From NCBI GenBank assembly GCA_022821965.1, contig JAJECN010000004.1, forward strand, positions 1 through 36,236: DNA of 36,236 nucleotides. The letters run 5' to 3'. The position numbers and the translations under genes were made by a program. Below, one piece after another: positions 5,603 to 33,803 of the stretch; position 1 is the stretch's first letter; each line of letters starts with the position of its first letter. Under the pieces are notes generated by a model. That model saw nothing but the letters and a program-made list of their open reading frames with translations, did not search any database and had not been told where the DNA came from. Source of the stretch: Candidatus Poribacteria bacterium (GTDB lineage Bacteria > Poribacteria > WGA-4E > WGA-3G).

Positions 5603-5676
5603 TAATGCAATTCGTGCAGTTATCTGCAATTTATCGCGAGTTTTCCGGCACTCGCGAACAACGCAGGCACGAATAT

Positions 5677-25296: not shown

Positions 25297-25343
25297 ATAT
25301 ACGTGTTGATATAAAAAAGTTTGGATACCTCTTTCAATAAATT

Positions 25344-25362
25344 GATAATGAGTCTCATTCTC
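25344..25362. promoter_or_regulatory. Fur-box-like operator
   Basis: GATAATGAGTCTCATTCTC is one base off the commonest form. It sits downstream of the 25267 promoter in the leader of the heme monooxygenase transcript. Confidence 0.78.
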
Positions 25363-25508: not shown

Positions 25509-25520
25509 CACCATAAATAT

Positions 25521-25539
25521 GATAATGAGTTTCATTCTC
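25521..25539. promoter_or_regulatory. Fur-box-like operator next to the monooxygenase start
   Basis: GATAATGAGTTTCATTCTC is 17 bases before ATG 25556, just ahead of AAGGAG. It likely governs the heme locus together with the box at 25344. Confidence 0.8.
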
Positions 25540-25555: not shown

Positions 25556-25912
25556 ATGATAACCGTTGCGAACCGAATCTATGTCGCCCCTGAATATCAG
25601 GACGAATTTGAGAAGCGGTTCCGAAATCGGGCGCGTCTTGTTGACGGAATGCCAGGGTTTATTTCCAACCAGGTCCTGCGTCCCGTCAATGAAGGGGATC
25701 CGTATATCGTTTTTACACTCTGGGAATCACGAAAGGATTTTGAAAACTGGGTAGAATCCGAGGAATTCCGTAAAGGGCACGCTCAATCCGGCACGTTGCC
25801 GAAAGAGGCATTCACGCAATCCAACAAACTTGAACTTCACGAGGTGTTCCTCGATTCCGCTCGAGCAGACCTGAAAGAGGAACCACCAGGGGGTCCTTTT
25901 AAAGTTCACTAA
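25556..25912 (+). CDS. IsdG/HmoA-type heme-degrading monooxygenase (ABM domain)
   Basis: This is a 118-residue antibiotic-biosynthesis-monooxygenase-fold protein of the IsdG/HmoA class, which opens the heme ring and frees iron in the cytoplasm. The triad that positions heme in IsdG appears to be kept: N6, W65 and H75, with the Trp-His spacing of 10 as in IsdG. The core IVFTLWESRKDFENWVESEEF is typical. AAGGAG precedes ATG 25556 and a Fur box lies immediately upstream. The C-terminal extra residues (DLKEEPPGGPFKVH) are a short tail. Its place at the head of a heme-uptake locus strongly supports heme degradation over antibiotic synthesis. Confidence 0.88.
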   Translation: MITVANRIYVAPEYQDEFEKRFRNRARLVDGMPGFISNQVLRPVNEGDPYIVFTLWESRKDFENWVESEEFRKGHAQSGTLPKEAFTQSNKLELHEVFLDSARADLKEEPPGGPFKVH

Positions 25913-26132
25913 AAAAAAATAAGAGCAGAAAAAGCGACGCAAGAAACAGGACATGCTCCCAACTGCCAATTGTTAGCTACTGTCCATGTTTCTGGGGGAA
26001 TTATACATACGTCGATGACAAATCGACAGCGTTTTGCGTACTACGGGTGCTTTGCGCGTGCCCGATGCCTTCTCTGCCTTAATTAGAATACGCTATCAGC
26101 CCCGCGATTGTCAAGAGAATTTGGAGATGAAC

Positions 26133-26405
26133 ATGCCAAGTCCGACAAATACAGCGTCATTTGAAAAAACGGTGAGAAAAATGGAGAAACAGCGCCGACG
26201 GTCGCCATACTCCTTTCTACCGCTTTCATGGAGCAGAGGTGCGTTTCTAAAATGGCTCCGACGAACACACGCATGGCTTGGACTATGGGGAGCGACTTTG
26301 GACATACTGCTTTGGACGCGTTTACACGGACCACGGTTGCTTGCGGCGGGGCTTATCTTCGGGGCCTTAACCCTTGCTATTATCTTTGTTTGGCGAACCT
26401 TCTAA
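26133..26405 (+). CDS. small membrane protein, possibly a reduced PepSY-TM-like protein
   Basis: This is a 90-residue protein with a basic N-terminus (EKTVRKMEKQRRRSP), the segment FLKWLRRTHAWLGLWGA and a C-terminal hydrophobic helix (LLAAGLIFGALTLAIIFVW). RRTHAWLGLWG resembles the first helix of PepSY-associated membrane proteins found near TonB receptors, but the periplasmic PepSY domain is absent. GGAG at 26123-26126 with a 6-base spacer supports ATG 26133 over in-frame ATGs at 26034 and 26127. It ends 19 bases before the receptor start, so it is probably in the same transcript. The function is unknown and the family tie is tentative. Confidence 0.6.
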   Translation: MPSPTNTASFEKTVRKMEKQRRRSPYSFLPLSWSRGAFLKWLRRTHAWLGLWGATLDILLWTRLHGPRLLAAGLIFGALTLAIIFVWRTF

Positions 26406-26424
26406 CGGACGCAAGAGGAAAATT

Positions 26425-28398
26425 ATGCTTTCAAACAAAACACACTGCGCAAAATGGTGCTTACATATAATGCTAAACCTTGTTTTAGGACTGCTTGCAT
26501 TCGCACTATTGAGTTCAGCAGAGAACAGCGGCAATACCGCCGAAACCGATGGTGCCACGGAATTAGAACCGGTCGTGGTGACGGCAACAAGGACACCACA
26601 ACGCTTGGAAGACACCCCTGTCATTACAAACCTCATCACACGCGACGAGATCGAAGCAACGGGAGCAGAGAACGTTGGAGAGGTATTAGAACATACAGCA
26701 GGCATTATTATCCATCGTGATGGACACGGCGACGGTGTTCAACTCCAAGGACTTGACTCTGAATACGTGCTAATTCTCGTGGATGGTGAACCACAAGTTG
26801 GACGTATCGCAGGTAAACTCGACATGGCACGGTTTGCTGTCGAAAACGTTGAGCGGATAGAAATCGTGAAAGGCGCAACTGCTTCTCTTTTCGGGAGTGA
26901 TGCACTCGGTGGTGTTATCAACATCATCACCCGCAAAGCGACTTCGCCCTTTTCCGTCCAACTCTCCCAAAGTTTTGAGCAAAACAACGCACTCGACAGC
27001 CGAGGCACGCTTGAATGGCAACGTAATAAACTTAACGCTCTTTTAACACTCAGTAGGAATCAGCGCGATCCGATCGATTTGGATCCGTCCGATCTCACAA
27101 CCACAATCGACGGTTATGCCAATGTGACGGGCTCTGCACGGACAGCGTATCAACTCACACCAGCGACGAACCTTGTGTTTTCTGGACAGTATTTCATGCA
27201 GAATCAAGAAGGTATCAGCGATAGCGGTTCCGTCGTTTTTGATAGGTTTGGCGATATTGAAAACTTCAGTGGAAGTTTGGGAATAGAACATGAATTCGGA
27301 AATGGTAGACAGAGAACACCTGAAACTTTGCTAACTGCCAAACTCTATGCAACCCGATATGACGATGAATCAAAAGTTATTGAGCGCGAAACTGCGGCAG
27401 TCAGTTCCCAAAATATCACCATCCAAGACTTGGTCAAAGGTGAAGTGCAGTTTAACATGACGGTCTGGGAAAAACACCAGCTCACGCTCGGTGGAGATGT
27501 CGTTCTTGAAAATCTTCAATCCCAGCGGATTACCGGTGGAGAGCGCGATATCTTTACCAATTCTCTCTTTGCACAGAACCAATTCCGTCCCATCTCCGCG
27601 CTTGCGGTTGTCATTGGTGGACGTTTAGACAACCACTCTGAATTCGGCACACACTTCAGCCCAAAGTTAAGTGCTATGTATCGGGTGACTGACGATTTCC
27701 GCTTCCGTTTTTCTTATGGGCAAGGGTTCCGCGCACCAGACTTTAAAAATCTCTATCTCGATTTTACCAATGTGACAGCCGGCTACCAAGTGTTAGGCAA
27801 TCCGAGCCTTCAACCCGAATCCTCACATAACTGGAATCTCGGAGTGGAATATGAGATATTCAACAGTTTGCTCGGTAGGATCCACGTGTATCGCAACGAC
27901 TTGCAAAATCTGATTGAAGCGGAACGCATCGGGAAAAGCGCAGCGGGTGGAAGTAAGTTTGAATATCAAAACATCAGCAGCGCATACACAGAAGGGACTG
28001 ATATTGAAGTCGTTATCGGTTCAATAGGCGGGTTCACCTCAACCGTTGGATACGCTTATCTCCGCGGTGCAGATAAGGAGAGCGGATTGCCTTTACTGAA
28101 CCGTTCCACACACAACGGCACACTCAAACTGGCGTACCTGCATTCAAATAGTGGTGTTCAGGTTGACTTACGTGGACGATATGCCAGCCAGTGGGGCCTC
28201 TATGATGATGGCGACAAGGTATTGGAACCTGAAGAACTCGCACCAAGTTATTGGGTCTGGAACATTCGTGCTTCAAAGACACTTTTCAAAATATTCAAAG
28301 CCTCAATTGGATGTAACAATATTTTTGACTTCAAAATTCCTACTTTTTATACCTTCACGGGCCGCTCATTTTATGGCGGTCTCTCTTTAACCTATTAA
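26425..28398 (+). CDS. hmuR: TonB-dependent heme receptor-like protein (HmuR type)
   Basis: This is a 657-residue outer-membrane receptor. A signal helix and EPVVVTATRTPQRLEDTPV lead into the plug (VLEHTAGIIIHRDGHGDGVQLQGLDSEYVLILVDG, VERIEIVKGATASLFGSDALGGVINIIT). The barrel carries FRAP and NPSL about 30 residues apart, the FRAP/NPxL motif pair of heme receptors. The histidine that many heme receptors have between those motifs is missing here. The neighbouring HmuY genes suggest heme is handed over by a partner, as in the HmuR/HmuY pair of Porphyromonas. I chose ATG 26425 because AAGAGGA lies upstream and a signal peptide then follows. It ends 13 bases before hmuY. Confidence 0.85.
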   Translation: MLSNKTHCAKWCLHIMLNLVLGLLAFALLSSAENSGNTAETDGATELEPVVVTATRTPQRLEDTPVITNLITRDEIEATGAENVGEVLEHTAGIIIHRDGHGDGVQLQGLDSEYVLILVDGEPQVGRIAGKLDMARFAVENVERIEIVKGATASLFGSDALGGVINIITRKATSPFSVQLSQSFEQNNALDSRGTLEWQRNKLNALLTLSRNQRDPIDLDPSDLTTTIDGYANVTGSARTAYQLTPATNLVFSGQYFMQNQEGISDSGSVVFDRFGDIENFSGSLGIEHEFGNGRQRTPETLLTAKLYATRYDDESKVIERETAAVSSQNITIQDLVKGEVQFNMTVWEKHQLTLGGDVVLENLQSQRITGGERDIFTNSLFAQNQFRPISALAVVIGGRLDNHSEFGTHFSPKLSAMYRVTDDFRFRFSYGQGFRAPDFKNLYLDFTNVTAGYQVLGNPSLQPESSHNWNLGVEYEIFNSLLGRIHVYRNDLQNLIEAERIGKSAAGGSKFEYQNISSAYTEGTDIEVVIGSIGGFTSTVGYAYLRGADKESGLPLLNRSTHNGTLKLAYLHSNSGVQVDLRGRYASQWGLYDDGDKVLEPEELAPSYWVWNIRASKTLFKIFKASIGCNNIFDFKIPTFYTFTGRSFYGGLSLTY

Positions 28399-28411
28399 TA
28401 CCAGAAAGGAT

Positions 28412-29074
28412 ATGAAAGACATGACACGGCTCATGATTTACATAACTTCACTGTTAGTTTTCACCGTCAGCACCGCTGTCCTTACAGCGTCTGCTGAACT
28501 TCATCAACATACACTCACGATTGATGCGACCGATCGTGAGAATTGGGCGTATATCAGCCTCACCAAAGGTGAAACGGTTGATATAGCCGATCCGGCATCC
28601 TCAATGGCGTGGGACCTCGGTTTTAAGCGGACCGCGGTCATCGTCAATGGGGGTGCCAGCGGTCCCGGAAAAACCGGGGCATTGGTTTTGAAGGACATCT
28701 CTTTTGAAGACATCCTCGAAGCCCCAGAAGACGACTACGTTTCAGACACTGAGCAAATTGCGACCTTTGCGCGAGGCGACGGTTGGTACACCTACACTGG
28801 ACCGCCGAATCATTGGGTCTTGCCGAACCCGAAAGTCTACGTTTTGCGGATCGCCGCTGACACAAAGGCACAGCCTGCAAGCCCGTATAACTACGCGAAA
28901 GTCCGCTTTATCGGTTATTACGAGAACAACGAAACCAAAGAGGGTTCGGGATACATCAGCATAGAATATGCTTTGCAAGACGATGGCACCCGTGCCTTTG
29001 TTGAATCTGTTCCCACAAGCGTTGATGCAAAGGGAAAGTTAACAACGATGTGGGCGGCACTCAAATTAAAGTAA
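28412..29074 (+). CDS. hmuY: HmuY-family heme-binding protein, secreted form
   Basis: This is a 220-residue HmuY-fold protein. A signal peptide ends in a type I site (TAVLTASA|E), and there is no lipobox Cys, so it should be a soluble periplasmic or secreted hemophore. The HmuY core is plain: IDATDRENWAYISL, AWDLGFKRTAVIVNGGASGPG, GDGWYTYTGPPNHWVLPNPKVYVLR, YAKVRFIGYY and the final strand GYISIEYALQ. One His (about 135) lies in the loop where HmuY heme ligands occur; other ligands cannot be set by eye. AAAGGA before ATG 28412 has a short spacer; ATG 28421 is the alternative. It lies directly behind the receptor in the Fur-controlled locus. Confidence 0.88.
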   Translation: MKDMTRLMIYITSLLVFTVSTAVLTASAELHQHTLTIDATDRENWAYISLTKGETVDIADPASSMAWDLGFKRTAVIVNGGASGPGKTGALVLKDISFEDILEAPEDDYVSDTEQIATFARGDGWYTYTGPPNHWVLPNPKVYVLRIAADTKAQPASPYNYAKVRFIGYYENNETKEGSGYISIEYALQDDGTRAFVESVPTSVDAKGKLTTMWAALKLK

Positions 29075-29098
29075 TAGGCACGCTCCGCCGTGCCGTAA
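29068..29098. repeat. 31-base hairpin repeat at the hmuY stop, copy 2
   Basis: The repeat overlaps the HmuY stop codon and carries GGCACG (29077-29082), a CTCCGC loop and CGTGCC (29089-29094). It matches 16269-16299 with one difference. Confidence 0.7.
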
Positions 29099-29109
29099 GG
29101 AGATTAGAA

Positions 29110-29340
29110 ATGGGATACAAAGCAGAATTTTTATCGCAAGCCGAGGTATGTGCTATCTATCAATGTCTTGATGGGCATATCCATTTCAAATATCGCACCT
29201 TAGACATCGCTATGGATACCTGCGATTTTCAGCAGGTCGCCGAAGTTTTTATCAAAGCCCTCCATGTTTTACAGAAGGCTGAAAAACCAACAACTGAAGA
29301 GATCGATTTGGAAAACATGGATGCACATGTGAAAGTTTAG
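29110..29340 (+). CDS. 76-residue protein between two hmuY genes, unknown function
   Basis: This is a short acidic protein, MGYKAEFLSQAEVCAIYQCL and onward, with Cys at 14, 20 and 38 and a GHIHFKY segment. No signal peptide is present, so it should be cytoplasmic. AAGGAG at about 29097-29102 supports ATG 29110 over ATG 29050, which would overlap the hmuY tail. The Cys/His pattern followed by a helix recalls small proteins seen in Bacteroidetes-type heme loci (DUF6686-like), but I cannot confirm this. The location between secreted and lipid-anchored HmuY genes suggests a heme- or iron-related cytoplasmic role. Confidence 0.65.
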   Translation: MGYKAEFLSQAEVCAIYQCLDGHIHFKYRTLDIAMDTCDFQQVAEVFIKALHVLQKAEKPTTEEIDLENMDAHVKV

Positions 29341-29373
29341 CCAGAATTGTAGGGAAACCATTGAGACTTCATA

Positions 29374-29493
29374 TTATAGTAGAATCCGAAAATATGTTTA
29401 CAGTCCGTCAGGGAACAAACCCCCACTGCCGCTGGCGAGGTTTGTAACCTCGCCCTTGTGTTGGTGTATAAGTAATCACGGAATCTACTATAA
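29374..29493. repeat. MITE-like element, copy 2
   Basis: TTATAGTAGAATCCG (29374-29388) and CGGAATCTACTATAA (29479-29493) pair at 14 of 15 positions. The 120-base interior contains a hairpin GGCGAGG...CCTCGCC near 29433-29453. It shares end sequence and hairpin style with 4784-4958. It sits between the 76-residue gene and the second HmuY gene. Confidence 0.7.
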
Positions 29494-29535
29494 TAACCCA
29501 ATTTCCCTACATTTTTTTAACCCTGAAGAAAGACA

Positions 29536-29552
29536 GGCACAGCATCTGTGCC
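29536..29552. repeat. short hairpin before lipoprotein hmuY
   Basis: GGCACAG (29536-29542) and CTGTGCC (29546-29552) form a 7-bp stem with CAT loop, 22 bases before the start of the second HmuY gene. It could affect translation or mark a processing site. Confidence 0.4.
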
Positions 29553-29574
29553 GTTTCCCGATAGGAGAATTATC

Positions 29575-30294
29575 ATGGAAACAGTCAGAAAATTTATGAA
29601 CCGCCAGCTTTTAACGCGCAGCTTGCAAACGCATACTGCAAAAACCTGCCTTGTGTTTCTACTCGGCATCCTCGTTCTTTCCAGTTTCGGATGCGGCCCC
29701 GTTGACGAGGACGATCTCGATCAGTTGCTTCAACCGGAGGAAACCGAAGATTCAACGCCGACATTAGTCACAGAGACTGATGCACAAACACCCGTTGAGG
29801 AACCCGCATTAGAATCGGTAACCTTCACAATCGACGCAACAAACAGAGAAGCGTGGGCATATTTCTCTTTTGCGTCCGGGGACACCGTTGACGTTGCGGA
29901 CGCCGAAAACTCGGAGGCGTGGGACATCGGATTCCAGCGGACGCAAGTCAAACTCAACGGTGGTGTCAGCGGACCAGGGATGGGTAGTGTCGTTATGCTC
30001 ACTGAAACAACATTTGAGGCGGTAACTGTAGCACCCGCGGACGGATACCTCTCTGATACAGACGACACGCTTGCAATCGTTCCGCAAAGTGAAAAAGGCT
30101 GGTATATCTACACTGGACCACCACTACACCAAGTTCTTCCTTTGGAGGGCAGAGTGTTTGTCGTGAAAGCCGCTGACGGTACATTCGCCAAGATTCGTTT
30201 TATCGGGTATTACAAAGATAACGAAAATAAGAAGGACAGCGGTTTCATTACATTTGAATACGTCCACCAACCGGACGGCAGTCGTAACTTCTAA
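29575..30294 (+). CDS. HmuY-family heme-binding lipoprotein
   Basis: This is a 239-residue second HmuY. In contrast to the first copy it has a lipobox, SFGC (Cys40), so it should be anchored to the outer membrane. An acidic, Thr/Pro-rich linker follows (residues about 43-80). The core is the same: IDATNREAWAYFSFASGDTV, AWDIGFQRTQVKLNGGVSGPG, GWYIYTGPPLHQVLPLEGRVFVV, KIRFIGYYKDN. A His (LHQ) lies in the loop matching the NHW loop of the first copy. TAGGAG at 29562-29567 supports ATG 29575 over ATG 29548. It probably sits on the surface to receive heme and pass it to the receptor. Confidence 0.88.
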   Translation: METVRKFMNRQLLTRSLQTHTAKTCLVFLLGILVLSSFGCGPVDEDDLDQLLQPEETEDSTPTLVTETDAQTPVEEPALESVTFTIDATNREAWAYFSFASGDTVDVADAENSEAWDIGFQRTQVKLNGGVSGPGMGSVVMLTETTFEAVTVAPADGYLSDTDDTLAIVPQSEKGWYIYTGPPLHQVLPLEGRVFVVKAADGTFAKIRFIGYYKDNENKKDSGFITFEYVHQPDGSRNF

Positions 30295-30342
30295 AGTCAG
30301 TACAACAAAGAACTCTACACTGAACAACTGAACAACGAGTTC

Positions 30343-30414
30343 ATGAGGCATTGGGTATGGAACATTACGTATGAATCTCCTTAACTCAAACGCGTTCCAT
30401 GCCCAGCGACTCAT
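30343..30414. repeat. long imperfect hairpin between hmuY2 and hmuT
   Basis: The 21-base arms 30343-30363 and 30394-30414 pair at 17 of 21 positions around a 30-base loop, ending 39 bases before hmuT. The sequence next to the right arm, ATACCATTTCTGA (30413-30425), matches the end of the MITE at 10145. It might set the HmuY:HmuTUV expression ratio. Confidence 0.55.
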
Positions 30415-30453
30415 ACCATTTCTGAATAAATACTTCTCATTAAGGAGGACATA

Positions 30454-31407
30454 ATGCAAATCTTACGTTCAGACCTGTGTAAGGCGTGGCTATTAAGCGT
30501 TTCGATTTTCATTCTATTTGGTGCCCTACTCTGCCTTGCCGTCGCAGCGTCAATTGAGGTCATAGATGCAGAGGGCAAAAACGTAGCCATCACATCATCA
30601 GAGCGTATTGTGAGTCTCAACGGCAGTACTACCGAAATCCTATTCGCACTAGGTGTCGGCGACAATGTGGTCGGTTGCGATGCCTCATCGACGTATCCGA
30701 AAGGCGTAAAGGAGAAACTTCCAAGCGTCGGGTATCAGTATGGACTCAATGCCGAGGGAATCCTCTCCCTGAATCCAACACTCGTGATTGGACGTGACGA
30801 TGTGAGACCACCGCAAGTTGTGCCACAACTGCGCATGGCGGGCGTAACCGTTTTATTGCTTAAGGAACCCCGCAGTTTTGAGACAGCCAAACAACGGCTG
30901 CTAACTATCGGTAAAGCAGTCGGACGCGAGAAAAAAGCGCAGGAACTGACAAAGAGTTTGGAGGCAGATATCAAGGCGTTAGAAACCAAACTCGCTTCTC
31001 AAAAAGAGCAGCCGAAACAGAAGGCACTGTTCCTCTATTTGCGAGGCACACAAACGACTTTGGTGTTAGGGACAGATACCGCACCCGGAGCAATGTTTGA
31101 TATTGTCGGTGCCGAAAATGCAGCAGGAAACATCAAAGGAAATAAACCGATGACAGCAGAAGCGGTAATCGCTGCGCAACCGGATGTCTATGTGCTGTTT
31201 ACCACAGGTCTGAAATCTATTGGTGGGGTTGATGGATTGCTCAAACTGCCCGGCTTAGCACACACGCCTGCTGGACAAAACAGACGCGTCGTGACGCTCG
31301 ATGGACAATACTTGTCCGGATTCGGTCCTCGCTGTGGACGCGCTGCGCTTGACCTATTCCGAGGCATCTACGAAACAGAGGGATATTTCGCTGCAACAGA
31401 CGAATGA
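30454..31407 (+). CDS. hmuT: periplasmic heme-binding protein of ABC transporter
   Basis: This is a 317-residue periplasmic substrate-binding protein of the helical-backbone metal-receptor class. The signal peptide (LLSVSIFILFGALLCLAVAAS) is clear. SSERIVSLNGSTTEILFALGVGDNVVGCD and the GYQYGLNAEGILSLNPTLVIG segment match HmuT/ShuT-type heme binders, in which a Tyr near this position binds heme. The second lobe (MTAEAVIAAQPDVYVLF) is complete. AAGGAGG precedes ATG 30454. Its stop overlaps the permease start by ATGA, so translation is coupled. Confidence 0.87.
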   Translation: MQILRSDLCKAWLLSVSIFILFGALLCLAVAASIEVIDAEGKNVAITSSERIVSLNGSTTEILFALGVGDNVVGCDASSTYPKGVKEKLPSVGYQYGLNAEGILSLNPTLVIGRDDVRPPQVVPQLRMAGVTVLLLKEPRSFETAKQRLLTIGKAVGREKKAQELTKSLEADIKALETKLASQKEQPKQKALFLYLRGTQTTLVLGTDTAPGAMFDIVGAENAAGNIKGNKPMTAEAVIAAQPDVYVLFTTGLKSIGGVDGLLKLPGLAHTPAGQNRRVVTLDGQYLSGFGPRCGRAALDLFRGIYETEGYFAATDE

Positions 31408-32429
31408 CCCTTTTCGTATCAGTTTTAAGAAAGATGCAAAAGCGAACCAAGATCCTGTTAACCCTCATCGGTCTACTCCCAATATCTATATGTGTTGCGG
31501 CAGGTATAGGTGCATATCAGATTCTACCATGGCGTATCCCTGAAATCCTATTTTTCCGAGAAGATGGTTTTGCAGTCCTTGTCCACGTGCGTTTTCCACG
31601 CGTTATTCTATCCGCTGCTGTTGGTGCAATGTTAGCCATTTCCGGTGCGACGCTGCAAGGCATCTTTCGCAATCCGCTTGCAGACCCAGGGTTAATCGGT
31701 GTCACAGCAGGTGCAGGGTTAGGTGCGACACTCTGGATTGTCCTAATCGGTGGCGGTGCGTTAGGCGTATGGGGACTTCCTATCGCTGCCTTCGGATGTG
31801 GAATACTCGTAACCATCGGTGTATGGAAAATCGCGGAGGAACAAGGAAGAGTCCGTACATTGACGCTACTGCTGGCTGGTATTGCACTCAACAGTTTCGC
31901 TGGAGCCGGGATCGGATTAATGACCTTCCTTGCTGACGATGAGCAGCTGCGAAGTTTGACTTTTTGGTTGCTCGGCGGCTTCGGTGGCGCGACGTGGCAC
32001 GTTGTTTTCGTAACGCTGCCGATCGCAGCGATAGGGTTACTTGTCCTGTCACGGCAAGCAGCCGCGCTGAACGCGATGAGTCTGGGAGAGTCCGAAGCCT
32101 ATCACCTCGGCGTTTCAACAGAAACTTTGAAAAGATGGGCAGTTTTCGGTGTCGCGCTTACGGTAGGCGCAGCGGTTTCAGCAGCAGGTGGTATTGGTTT
32201 CGTCGGACTCGTTGTCCCACATCTCCTGCGCCTCTTAGGGGGCGCAGACCATCGGTATGTCCTCCCCGGTTCAGCAGTCGGCGGTGCTATACTACTTGTC
32301 TCGGCAGATCTATTTTCACGGACGGTTGTTGCCCCCGCTGAATTGCCCGTTGGCATCGTCACCGCCTTGATTGGCGGTCCATTCTTTCTATGGCTACTGC
32401 TCAAATTCAAACGTGAGGTTTTTTTATAG
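31404..32429 (+). CDS. hmuU: heme ABC transporter permease (FecCD/BtuC family)
   Basis: This is a 341-residue inner-membrane permease with about ten helices. It has the family segments VRFPRVILSAAVGAMLAISGATLQGIFRNPLADPGLIGVTAGAG and GGIGFVGLVVPHLLRLLGGADHRYVLP, the latter the cytoplasmic loop that contacts the ATPase. It starts at 31404, where ATGA overlaps the hmuT stop; ATG 31434 is a weaker alternative. It pairs with the ATPase 28 bases downstream. Confidence 0.9.
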   Translation: MTLFVSVLRKMQKRTKILLTLIGLLPISICVAAGIGAYQILPWRIPEILFFREDGFAVLVHVRFPRVILSAAVGAMLAISGATLQGIFRNPLADPGLIGVTAGAGLGATLWIVLIGGGALGVWGLPIAAFGCGILVTIGVWKIAEEQGRVRTLTLLLAGIALNSFAGAGIGLMTFLADDEQLRSLTFWLLGGFGGATWHVVFVTLPIAAIGLLVLSRQAAALNAMSLGESEAYHLGVSTETLKRWAVFGVALTVGAAVSAAGGIGFVGLVVPHLLRLLGGADHRYVLPGSAVGGAILLVSADLFSRTVVAPAELPVGIVTALIGGPFFLWLLLKFKREVFL

Positions 32430-32457
32430 GAAATCACTGCTACAGAGGGCTGAAAAA

Positions 32458-33228
32458 ATGATTGAATTGGAAGAGGTCGGTTACCGAATTGGCAAGAATT
32501 GGTTAGTGCGGGACATCAACGTCACAATTGAGAAAGGAACGTTATGGGGAATTGTTGGTCCCAACGGTGCGGGGAAATCTACACTTTTGCGATTAATTTC
32601 CGGGGAACTGTTGCCAACGACCGGCGAAATTCGTCTCCTCGACAAACCCATTCACAAATACGAACCAAAAGAATTGGCACGCCTTCGCGCCTATCTTCAG
32701 CAAAAACGGGACCTAAACTTCCCGTTTACCACCTTGGAAATTGTCCTGTTTGGACGACACCCGTACCTCAACGGTACAAAAGAGACTACCACCGACCTTT
32801 TAATCGCCAAGGAAGCACTGCGGCAGGTTGAAGCCGACATGTTCGCGGAACGACTCTATCCGACCCTGTCCGGCGGCGAGGCGAGCCGTGTTGACATCGC
32901 ACGGATCCTCACACAAGCCCCGGACCTGTTTCTGTTAGACGAACCAACAAACCACCTGGATCCGAGACACCAAGTGCAGATACTTAACCTATGCAAAACG
33001 GTCTGTGACGGAGGTAAAACCGTTATCACAGCGATCCACGACTTGAACCTCGCGTCAATGTATGCCGACCAACTCTTACTGTTGAAAGAGGGAATCCCTA
33101 TCGCGTGTGGTCCGCCTGAAGTCGTGCTAACCTTGGATCAGCTATCGGAAACTTACGGTATCCCGTTTGAGGTGTTGTCTCACCCGGATGGATATCCATG
33201 GGTGATGCCGAGTTTGAATACTTCTTAG
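32458..33228 (+). CDS. hmuV: heme ABC transporter ATP-binding protein
   Basis: This is a 256-residue ABC ATPase. Walker A is GPNGAGKST (34-42), the signature is LSGGEASRVDIARIL, Walker B is LFLLDEPTNHLD and the switch His lies in AIHDLNLAS. This spacing and the GEASRVDIARIL signature fit HmuV/FecE-type importers. An AGAGGG ribosome binding site supports ATG 32458; the longer frame from 32371 would overlap hmuU. It powers transport by HmuT/HmuU. Confidence 0.92.
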   Translation: MIELEEVGYRIGKNWLVRDINVTIEKGTLWGIVGPNGAGKSTLLRLISGELLPTTGEIRLLDKPIHKYEPKELARLRAYLQQKRDLNFPFTTLEIVLFGRHPYLNGTKETTTDLLIAKEALRQVEADMFAERLYPTLSGGEASRVDIARILTQAPDLFLLDEPTNHLDPRHQVQILNLCKTVCDGGKTVITAIHDLNLASMYADQLLLLKEGIPIACGPPEVVLTLDQLSETYGIPFEVLSHPDGYPWVMPSLNTS

Positions 33229-33256
33229 AAGCTGCATCCATACTTTTGAAAAAAAC

Positions 33257-33285
33257 TTGAAATTCGTTCTAACATCAGATATACT
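33257..33285 (+). promoter_or_regulatory. sigma70-type promoter of the ferritin-like gene
   Basis: TTGAAA (33257-33262) and TATACT (33280-33285) have a 17-base spacer, 56 bases before the gene. There is no Fur box here, consistent with storage being expressed apart from uptake. Confidence 0.65.
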
Positions 33286-33341
33286 GATAGATGCAATCAT
33301 AAGAACTGAAATTCCAACACTTTAATCACAGGAGACACATC

Positions 33342-33803
33342 ATGAATCAAGTAACAAACGAGGCAATCATCAAAGAACTCACTCGCGCCTATTGGTTAGA
33401 GTTAGAGGCAACCATTAATTATCTCGCCATCTCTGTTGATTTGGACGGCATCCGTGCCGAAGAGATTAAGAAATCGTTGGCAACGGATATTCAAACAGAA
33501 ATTTCACACGCGCAGGAACTTGCCGCCCGTATTAAGGAAATTGACGGACGAGTGCCTGGCTCATTTGCCTTTAAACCTGAACAAGCCTCGCTTCAACCAC
33601 CAGAAGATTCAACGGACCTTGTGTCAACGATCCATGGGGTTATTGAAGCAGAAAACATGGCGATTGAACAATACAATAAGATTATTCGCTTGTGCGACGG
33701 GATAGACTACGTCACCCAAGACCTCTGCATCAAACTCCTTGCCGATGAGGAGAAACACCGTCGGGAGTTCAGAGGATTTCTCATGGAATACGAGCAGGAT
33801 TAA
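33342..33803 (+). CDS. ferritin-like di-iron protein
   Basis: This is a 153-residue four-helix protein. Likely iron ligands are E22, E53 and H56 (EISH), E102 or E104, and E136/H139 (EEKH), which is the E...ExxH...E...ExxH pattern of ferritin-like proteins. It is close in length to bacterioferritins but lacks an obvious heme-binding Met, so iron storage or oxidation is favoured. The Dps and rubrerythrin classes are alternatives. AGGAG precedes ATG 33342, and the gene has its own promoter. It sits next to heme import, where iron freed from heme would need storage. Confidence 0.82.
   Translation: MNQVTNEAIIKELTRAYWLELEATINYLAISVDLDGIRAEEIKKSLATDIQTEISHAQELAARIKEIDGRVPGSFAFKPEQASLQPPEDSTDLVSTIHGVIEAENMAIEQYNKIIRLCDGIDYVTQDLCIKLLADEEKHRREFRGFLMEYEQD

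Follow-up and report, generated by a model that had tools for sequence, protein, structure and literature searches.

Two HmuY paralogs with different export signals in a poribacterial heme-uptake locus, and a short C-terminal tail on a phylum-wide class of signal-bearing proteins

The window analyzed here is a 36,236-nucleotide stretch of Candidatus Poribacteria DNA (GenBank assembly GCA_022821965.1, contig JAJECN010000004.1, positions 1 to 36,236 of the forward strand) from a genome of 5.69 Mb in 62 contigs. Its segment from 25556 to 33803 reads as a single heme-uptake operon, which encodes, in order, an HmuQ-like enzyme, a small membrane protein, a TonB receptor, HmuY1, a small protein, HmuY2, HmuT, HmuU, HmuV, and a ferritin-like protein. 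The same gene order recurs in the named loci of relatives, with gaps and some broken genes. The features are as follows.

25343..25362, + strand: Fur-like palindrome, one of the two sites used to write the search pattern
25520..25539, + strand: Fur-like palindrome directly before HmuQ, the other site used to write the pattern
25556..25912, + strand: HmuQ/IsdG-like heme-degrading monooxygenase (PF03992, 6.7e-23; NF053649, 1.8e-16, below cut-off)
26127..26405, + strand: shortened membrane protein, no Pfam match
26425..28398, + strand: TonB-dependent receptor, heme/hemoglobin-receptor-like (best NCBIfam match TIGR01785, 2.7e-55, below cut-off)
27727..27810, + strand: receptor box FRAP...NPSL without His, FRAPDFKNLYLDFTNVTAGYQVLGNPSL
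28412..29074, + strand: HmuY1, HmuY-fold protein (PF14064, 62.8 bits) with a type I signal and a C-terminal tail and without Cys
28412..28495, + strand: HmuY1 signal peptide, hydrophobic, ending ...LTASA/ELHQ, with cleavage after ASA placed by eye
28811..28813, + strand: HmuY1 His134 in GPPNHWVLP, counterpart of HmuY2 His185
29021..29071, + strand: HmuY1 C-terminal tail VDAKGKLTTMWAALKLK (pattern match C55:29036-29065)
29110..29340, + strand: small conserved protein between the hmuY genes, CAIYQCLDGHIHxKYR, no Pfam match
29575..30294, + strand: HmuY2, predicted HmuY-fold lipoprotein (PF14064, 88.0 bits)
29680..29694, + strand: HmuY2 lipobox SSFGC (Cys40)
30127..30129, + strand: HmuY2 His185, counterpart of HmuY1 His134
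30454..31407, + strand: heme ABC transporter substrate-binding protein, HmuT-like (PF01497, 1.7e-37)
31404..32429, + strand: ABC permease, HmuU-like (PF01032, 2.2e-88)
32371..33228, + strand: ABC ATPase, HmuV-like (NF010068, 262.8 bits, over the cut-off of 261)
33342..33803, + strand: ferritin/Dps-like protein (PF00210, 8e-19)

The Fur-like palindromes were recognized by their likeness to what we take to be the Fur consensus. The search pattern has 17 matches in the window (both strands) against 0.06 expected, a ratio to be read in the knowledge that the pattern was built from the window's own sites at 25343 and 25520. Further Fur-like palindromes lie at 5676, 5786, 7549, 13764, 13845, 17869, and 20806, and the window looks like an iron-regulated island. 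The small membrane protein, presumably of the PepSY type, has counterparts in eight named loci that are stop-to-stop frames of 244 to 319 aa; both of its ends align with these, and the middle is gone. Homologs of the small protein at 29110 to 29340 sit at the corresponding position in 19 of the 20 named loci, L042 starting too late to cover it. Downstream of this gene is a MITE-like inverted repeat (29372 to 29495; arms of 31 nt, 77% complementary), in which the core of one arm matches only two loci, both from the genome of origin, among 137 loci.

The best PDB match of the TonB-dependent receptor is the colicin I receptor. The first-pass annotation had noted that this protein lacks the histidine between its FRAP and NPSL motifs, and the box indeed contains none. 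Over 26 rows (7 of them repeats, leaving 19 distinct loci, the window among them), the histidine between FRAP and NPxL was absent from 18 of the 19 loci, which argues that the His-less box is a feature of the lineage; the sole exception, L047, carries one (QVHGNPGL). At a further locus (L045:2983-4935), an in-frame stop divides the receptor gene into two frames.

Both HmuY1 (220 aa from the ATG at 28412) and HmuY2 (239 aa from the ATG at 29575) exceed the Pfam HmuY cut-off of 27, at the scores given above. The AlphaFold model of HmuY1 (pLDDT 78.9) has 8b6a and 3h8t as its top Foldseek matches, and the model of HmuY2 (pLDDT 80.9) has 3h8t. At an E value of 0.001 or less there were 11 matches for HmuY1 and 12 for HmuY2 (best E values, 2e-11 and 9.7e-12), every one of them HmuY, a named homolog, or a putative Bacteroides lipoprotein (4gbs). 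The poribacterial pair has its Pfam family and fold in common with Porphyromonas gingivalis HmuY and its relatives (Tfo, BfrB, BfrC, and PinO), and in both settings a TonB receptor and HmuTUV-like genes adjoin. The Poribacteria differ in belonging to another phylum and in having a second paralog with a type I signal and a tail. The family was present in 20 of the 60 genomes of our set (own genome counted), and each of the 20 named relatives of HmuY2 comes from a Candidatus Poribacteria MAG; identical sequences were merged, and the named loci and the further genomes overlap.

As first annotated, the two paralogs carry different export signals, a type I signal without cysteine on HmuY1 and a lipobox with Cys40 on HmuY2. 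This distinction held up well. There is no cysteine anywhere in the 220 aa of HmuY1, while HmuY2 has two (Cys25 and Cys40), the second of which is the last residue of SSFGC. Under a strict lipobox rule, a lipobox was found in 0 of 16 HmuY1 rows versus 26 of 31 HmuY2 rows, and the five HmuY2 rows that fail the rule show, by eye, a hydrophobic stretch followed by G/S-C. Since the two types of signal do not overlap in these 47 distinct complete paralog rows, the split is beyond chance. In a tree of the HmuY domain without the tail, HmuY1 forms one side of a single branch (99/99), which is consistent with one origin of the altered export signal; the tree is rooted at its midpoint and comes with a long-branch warning. 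Both the counts and the tree exclude two HmuY1 rows, of 121 and 90 aa, that are short or broken. In a cell with two membranes, a type I signal on its own brings a protein no further than the periplasm.

In P. gingivalis HmuY, the heme ligands are His134 and His166 (PMC6200708). When HmuY2 was aligned to that protein, the segment expected to hold His134 was missing (38 chain residues lie between the aligned blocks in P. gingivalis HmuY, versus 10 in HmuY2) and a glycine stood at the place of His166. Bis-histidine ligation of the P. gingivalis type was thus not found in HmuY2; the comparison is a sequence alignment of HmuY2 only, in which the chain position taken as His166 is itself deduced. The only histidine invariant in both paralogs (37 of 37 aligned rows, the cut-short HmuY2 of L046 being left out) is that of the GPPxH motif. 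This residue is the best candidate heme ligand; two distant rows, L003 and L004, lack it. Other modes of binding are known in the family; some HmuY proteins use a methionine ligand or bind heme without ligation of the iron (PMC12106395).

The first-pass annotation went on to suggest a relay, in which HmuY1 would act as a released hemophore, free of the cell, with heme moving from it to HmuY2 anchored at the surface and then to the receptor. Its premises stand, namely, the distinct and conserved export signals, the His-less receptor box, and the position of both hmuY genes beside the receptor in a conserved gene order. Moreover, P. gingivalis HmuY is both lipid anchored and shed (PMC6200708). 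Several losses speak against an obligatory relay. In the 19 loci that cover its place (of 21, counting the window; the stretches of L040 and L042 begin beyond it), HmuY1 is complete in 15, broken in three (L036, L037, and L038), and absent from one (L047), and all four of the latter still have a receptor frame and an HmuY2 frame. This argument is weakened by other decay, since no more than 78 aa of hmuU is seen in L036 and in L038 hmuT lies in two frames, so that the loss of HmuY1 may in part reflect decay of the whole locus. The reverse case is seen in L046, where HmuY1 is kept and HmuY2 is cut short. Free release would also require an outer membrane step beyond the type I signal, and the P. 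gingivalis-type ligands are not conserved in the alignment of HmuY2. A relay of this kind is possible, but it is putative only, and we regard it as rather doubtful.

HmuY1 also has a C-terminal tail, which the first-pass annotation did not mention, as it did not mention the small conserved gene and the inverted repeat between the hmuY genes. An ending of about 17 residues with the consensus V[DE]P..KL[AT]TTW[GA].[LI]K was found in 15 of 16 HmuY1 rows (the 16th, from L044, is a near match) versus 0 of 31 HmuY2 rows. In the model of HmuY1, it falls in the low-confidence end (pLDDT below 50, mature residues 173 to 192), outside the folded domain. Other proteins encoded at neighboring loci share this type of ending. 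We searched with a DNA pattern for the core K-L-x-T-x-W-[GA]-x-[ILMV]-K, with the reversed pattern as a control, and obtained 94 matches in the genome of origin versus 0 for the control. All 94 sit 1 to 10 residues ahead of a stop codon. Positions that the pattern leaves free are also conserved, with valine at -5 in 88 of 94 and proline at -3 in 64 of 94 (background, 7.0% and 4.0%). Chance or a codon artifact was considered as the source of the tail and rejected, given the empty control in this genome and the mixed codons among the 94 matches. Our own hydrophobicity rule (not SignalP) assigns a signal-peptide-like segment to 90 of the 93 tailed frames that are complete, and the other three start without one; among the 90, a lipobox was found in 1 by the strict rule and in 6 by a loose one. 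The hosts include 51 LamG proteins, 16 3-keto-disaccharide hydrolases, three Kelch proteins, the one HmuY, and other folds. One tail, at L100:3111-3239, belongs to a 43-aa frame that has no signal; a type IX domain match precedes it by some 180 bases on the same contig.

Across the phylum, the pattern was found in 72 of 72 genomes, with 1 to 128 matches each, and the reversed control gave 10 matches over all 78 genomes of the phylum-range search; outside the phylum, it was found in 0 of 77 genomes (75 genera), with one match for the control. A profile built from 43 tails (that of the window plus 42 taken from the 84 in which the motif is followed by no more than 4 residues) gave 149 matches among the best 150 of 269 candidates in the genome of origin; 34, 53, 21, 77, and 70 matches in five other genomes of the phylum; and no matches in six genomes outside it. 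These are raw counts, and position and signal were instead read for the pattern sites. Tail sites were also read in five additional genomes of the phylum, in 40 stretches that were picked by hand from the pattern matches and not at random; 45 of 45 sites lay 0 to 5 residues from the stop, and 36 of 36 complete tailed frames had a signal-like segment. One genome (G050) was considered as a natural loss of the tail, with a single match to the exact pattern, and rejected on its 34 profile matches. Among the 94 tailed proteins, the tail matched no known family in Pfam (best 25 of 36 families) or NCBIfam (19 families). Literature searches, largely confined to openly accessible papers, gave no title or opening of an abstract that describes the tail or a poribacterial type IX system, and a text search for the motif strings, of the same scope, returned no match. 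Thus, as read from sequence, HmuY1 is a member of a large signal-bearing class with a short phylum-wide tail, for which our searches found no description. Given that it shares this tail with many signal-bearing proteins of the phylum, the final place of HmuY1 may depend on a second step of export.

Alternatively, HmuY1 may stay in the periplasm as a carrier or buffer of heme, with the tail serving not as an export signal but as a docking peptide for a periplasmic or outer membrane partner. The periplasm is indeed where a type I signal leads by default, and a short tail modeled with low confidence is what one would expect of a loose end. However, the tailed proteins mostly have LamG-like folds and others common among sugar-binding or sugar-cleaving proteins, presumably to be expected outside the cell, and we consider this reading unlikely. 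Still further down, we find it very improbable that the tail is a lineage-specific module without a sorting function, spread by duplication together with its host proteins: many of the tailed proteins are evidently related, inasmuch as 51 of 94 share the LamG fold, but the same ending occurs on unrelated folds, is always last (94 and 45 sites read) and of mixed codons, is kept across the phylum, and in HmuY accompanies the absence of the lipobox.

If the tail is a sorting signal, the question arises as to which machine reads it. In 2014, Kamke et al. (PMC3909097) described type IX sorting domains in Poribacteria and found none of the Por structural genes. In our searches, SprA-like proteins matched in 40 of 40 genomes of the phylum, none over the curated cut-off, and in 0 of 14 controls. 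Among the matches listed, the SprA-like ORFs are 1946 to 2312 aa long, with that of G014 in pieces on two contigs; the one in the genome of origin (L131:5887-12636, 2250 aa) scored 146.6 bits (5.3e-43) versus a cut-off of 200. PorU-like proteins matched in 21 of 21 genomes (best 3.9e-95), again none over the cut-off, with 2 of 14 controls matching below it, and many further matches span only the C-terminal part of the profile. The PorV family was over the cut-off in 21 of 21 genomes (17 matches in the genome of origin) and matched in 1 of 14 controls, below the cut-off. Taken together, these three sets of matches point to a possible type IX-like system in the phylum. The type IX domain itself (TIGR04183) had 58 matches in the genome of origin, the same search matching 2 of 14 controls.

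The tail resembles this type IX domain (type A) in being a C-terminal element on exported proteins, and type IX-like parts are found in the same genomes. However, TIGR04183 is a 72-position profile and the tail has about 17 residues, and none of the 94 tailed proteins matches TIGR04183 at E values up to 0.1. Conversely, a genome outside the phylum with at least 150 type IX domain matches (G131) contains no tail, so type IX systems do not need one. Both observations argue that the tail is a separate signal. In the genome of origin, a tailed LamG gene (L131:4838-5623) lies just upstream of the SprA-like gene; a tailed gene beside sprA was also seen in each of three further genomes from the genus and in 0 of 11 stretches outside the genus (two of them short), which makes for a weak link between tail and machine. 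A secretin was considered as the exit and set aside, the one secretin of this genome being indistinct here from a pilus secretin. The best candidate for reading the tail is the SprA/PorV/PorU-like system, whose one tie to it is co-presence. PorP-like barrels of Bacteroidota apparently serve to hold another class of type IX substrates (PMC9143113), and by analogy the PorV-family set could read the tail.

The account toward which we lean is that HmuY2 is an anchored lipoprotein and that HmuY1 reaches the surface or the medium by a second, tail-dependent step, with heme gathered there and passed on. The locus would then be a probably iron-regulated heme-uptake operon in which the HmuY gene was duplicated, from an ancestor that we infer was most likely a lipoprotein. 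HmuY2 would have remained an outer membrane lipoprotein, and HmuY1 carries a type I signal in place of the lipobox, plus the short C-terminal tail. The latter probably acts in sorting, for a second step by which HmuY1 crosses the outer membrane or is attached to it. There, the protein may collect heme and deliver it to the TonB receptor, either directly or by way of HmuY2. From there, heme would go to HmuTUV and presumably be opened by the HmuQ-like enzyme. More broadly, Poribacteria may use an undescribed sorting pathway, in which the ca. 17-residue tail sends a large Sec-exported class of proteins, HmuY1 included, over or onto the outer membrane, perhaps via a type IX-like machine whose expanded PorV-family barrels read different tails; on this wider proposal we are evenly divided. 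Against the favored account weigh the lack of tails in the type IX domain-rich genome G131, the lack of TIGR04183 matches among the tailed proteins, the scores of SprA and PorU below their cut-offs, the PorU-like matches in 2 of 14 controls, the bias toward a single fold (51 of 94 LamG), the losses of HmuY1, and the unaligned ligands.

Short C-terminal sorting signals are familiar from LPXTG, PEP-CTERM, and MYXO-CTERM proteins. Like these, the tail is a brief conserved element that closes many exported proteins of a single lineage, which are otherwise unrelated; unlike these, it has no hydrophobic membrane segment after the motif, and a stop codon follows within 0 to 10 residues. A soluble carrier that supplies a receptor in the membrane is likewise the principle of the HasA/HasR and IsdX hemophore relays, whose folds we take to be unrelated to that of HmuY; transfer in the present system is putative.

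Because its two sister domains differ in both export signal and tail, the HmuY pair offers a natural test of the tail. Type IX-like components in the phylum would, moreover, update the 2014 statement on missing Por structural genes (PMC3909097). According to the same source, Poribacteria rank with the most dominant members of the microbial communities of sponges. Should the tail prove to be an address label, its carriers would amount to a list of proteins (lectin-like, sugar-cleaving, and heme-handling) that may face the sponge.
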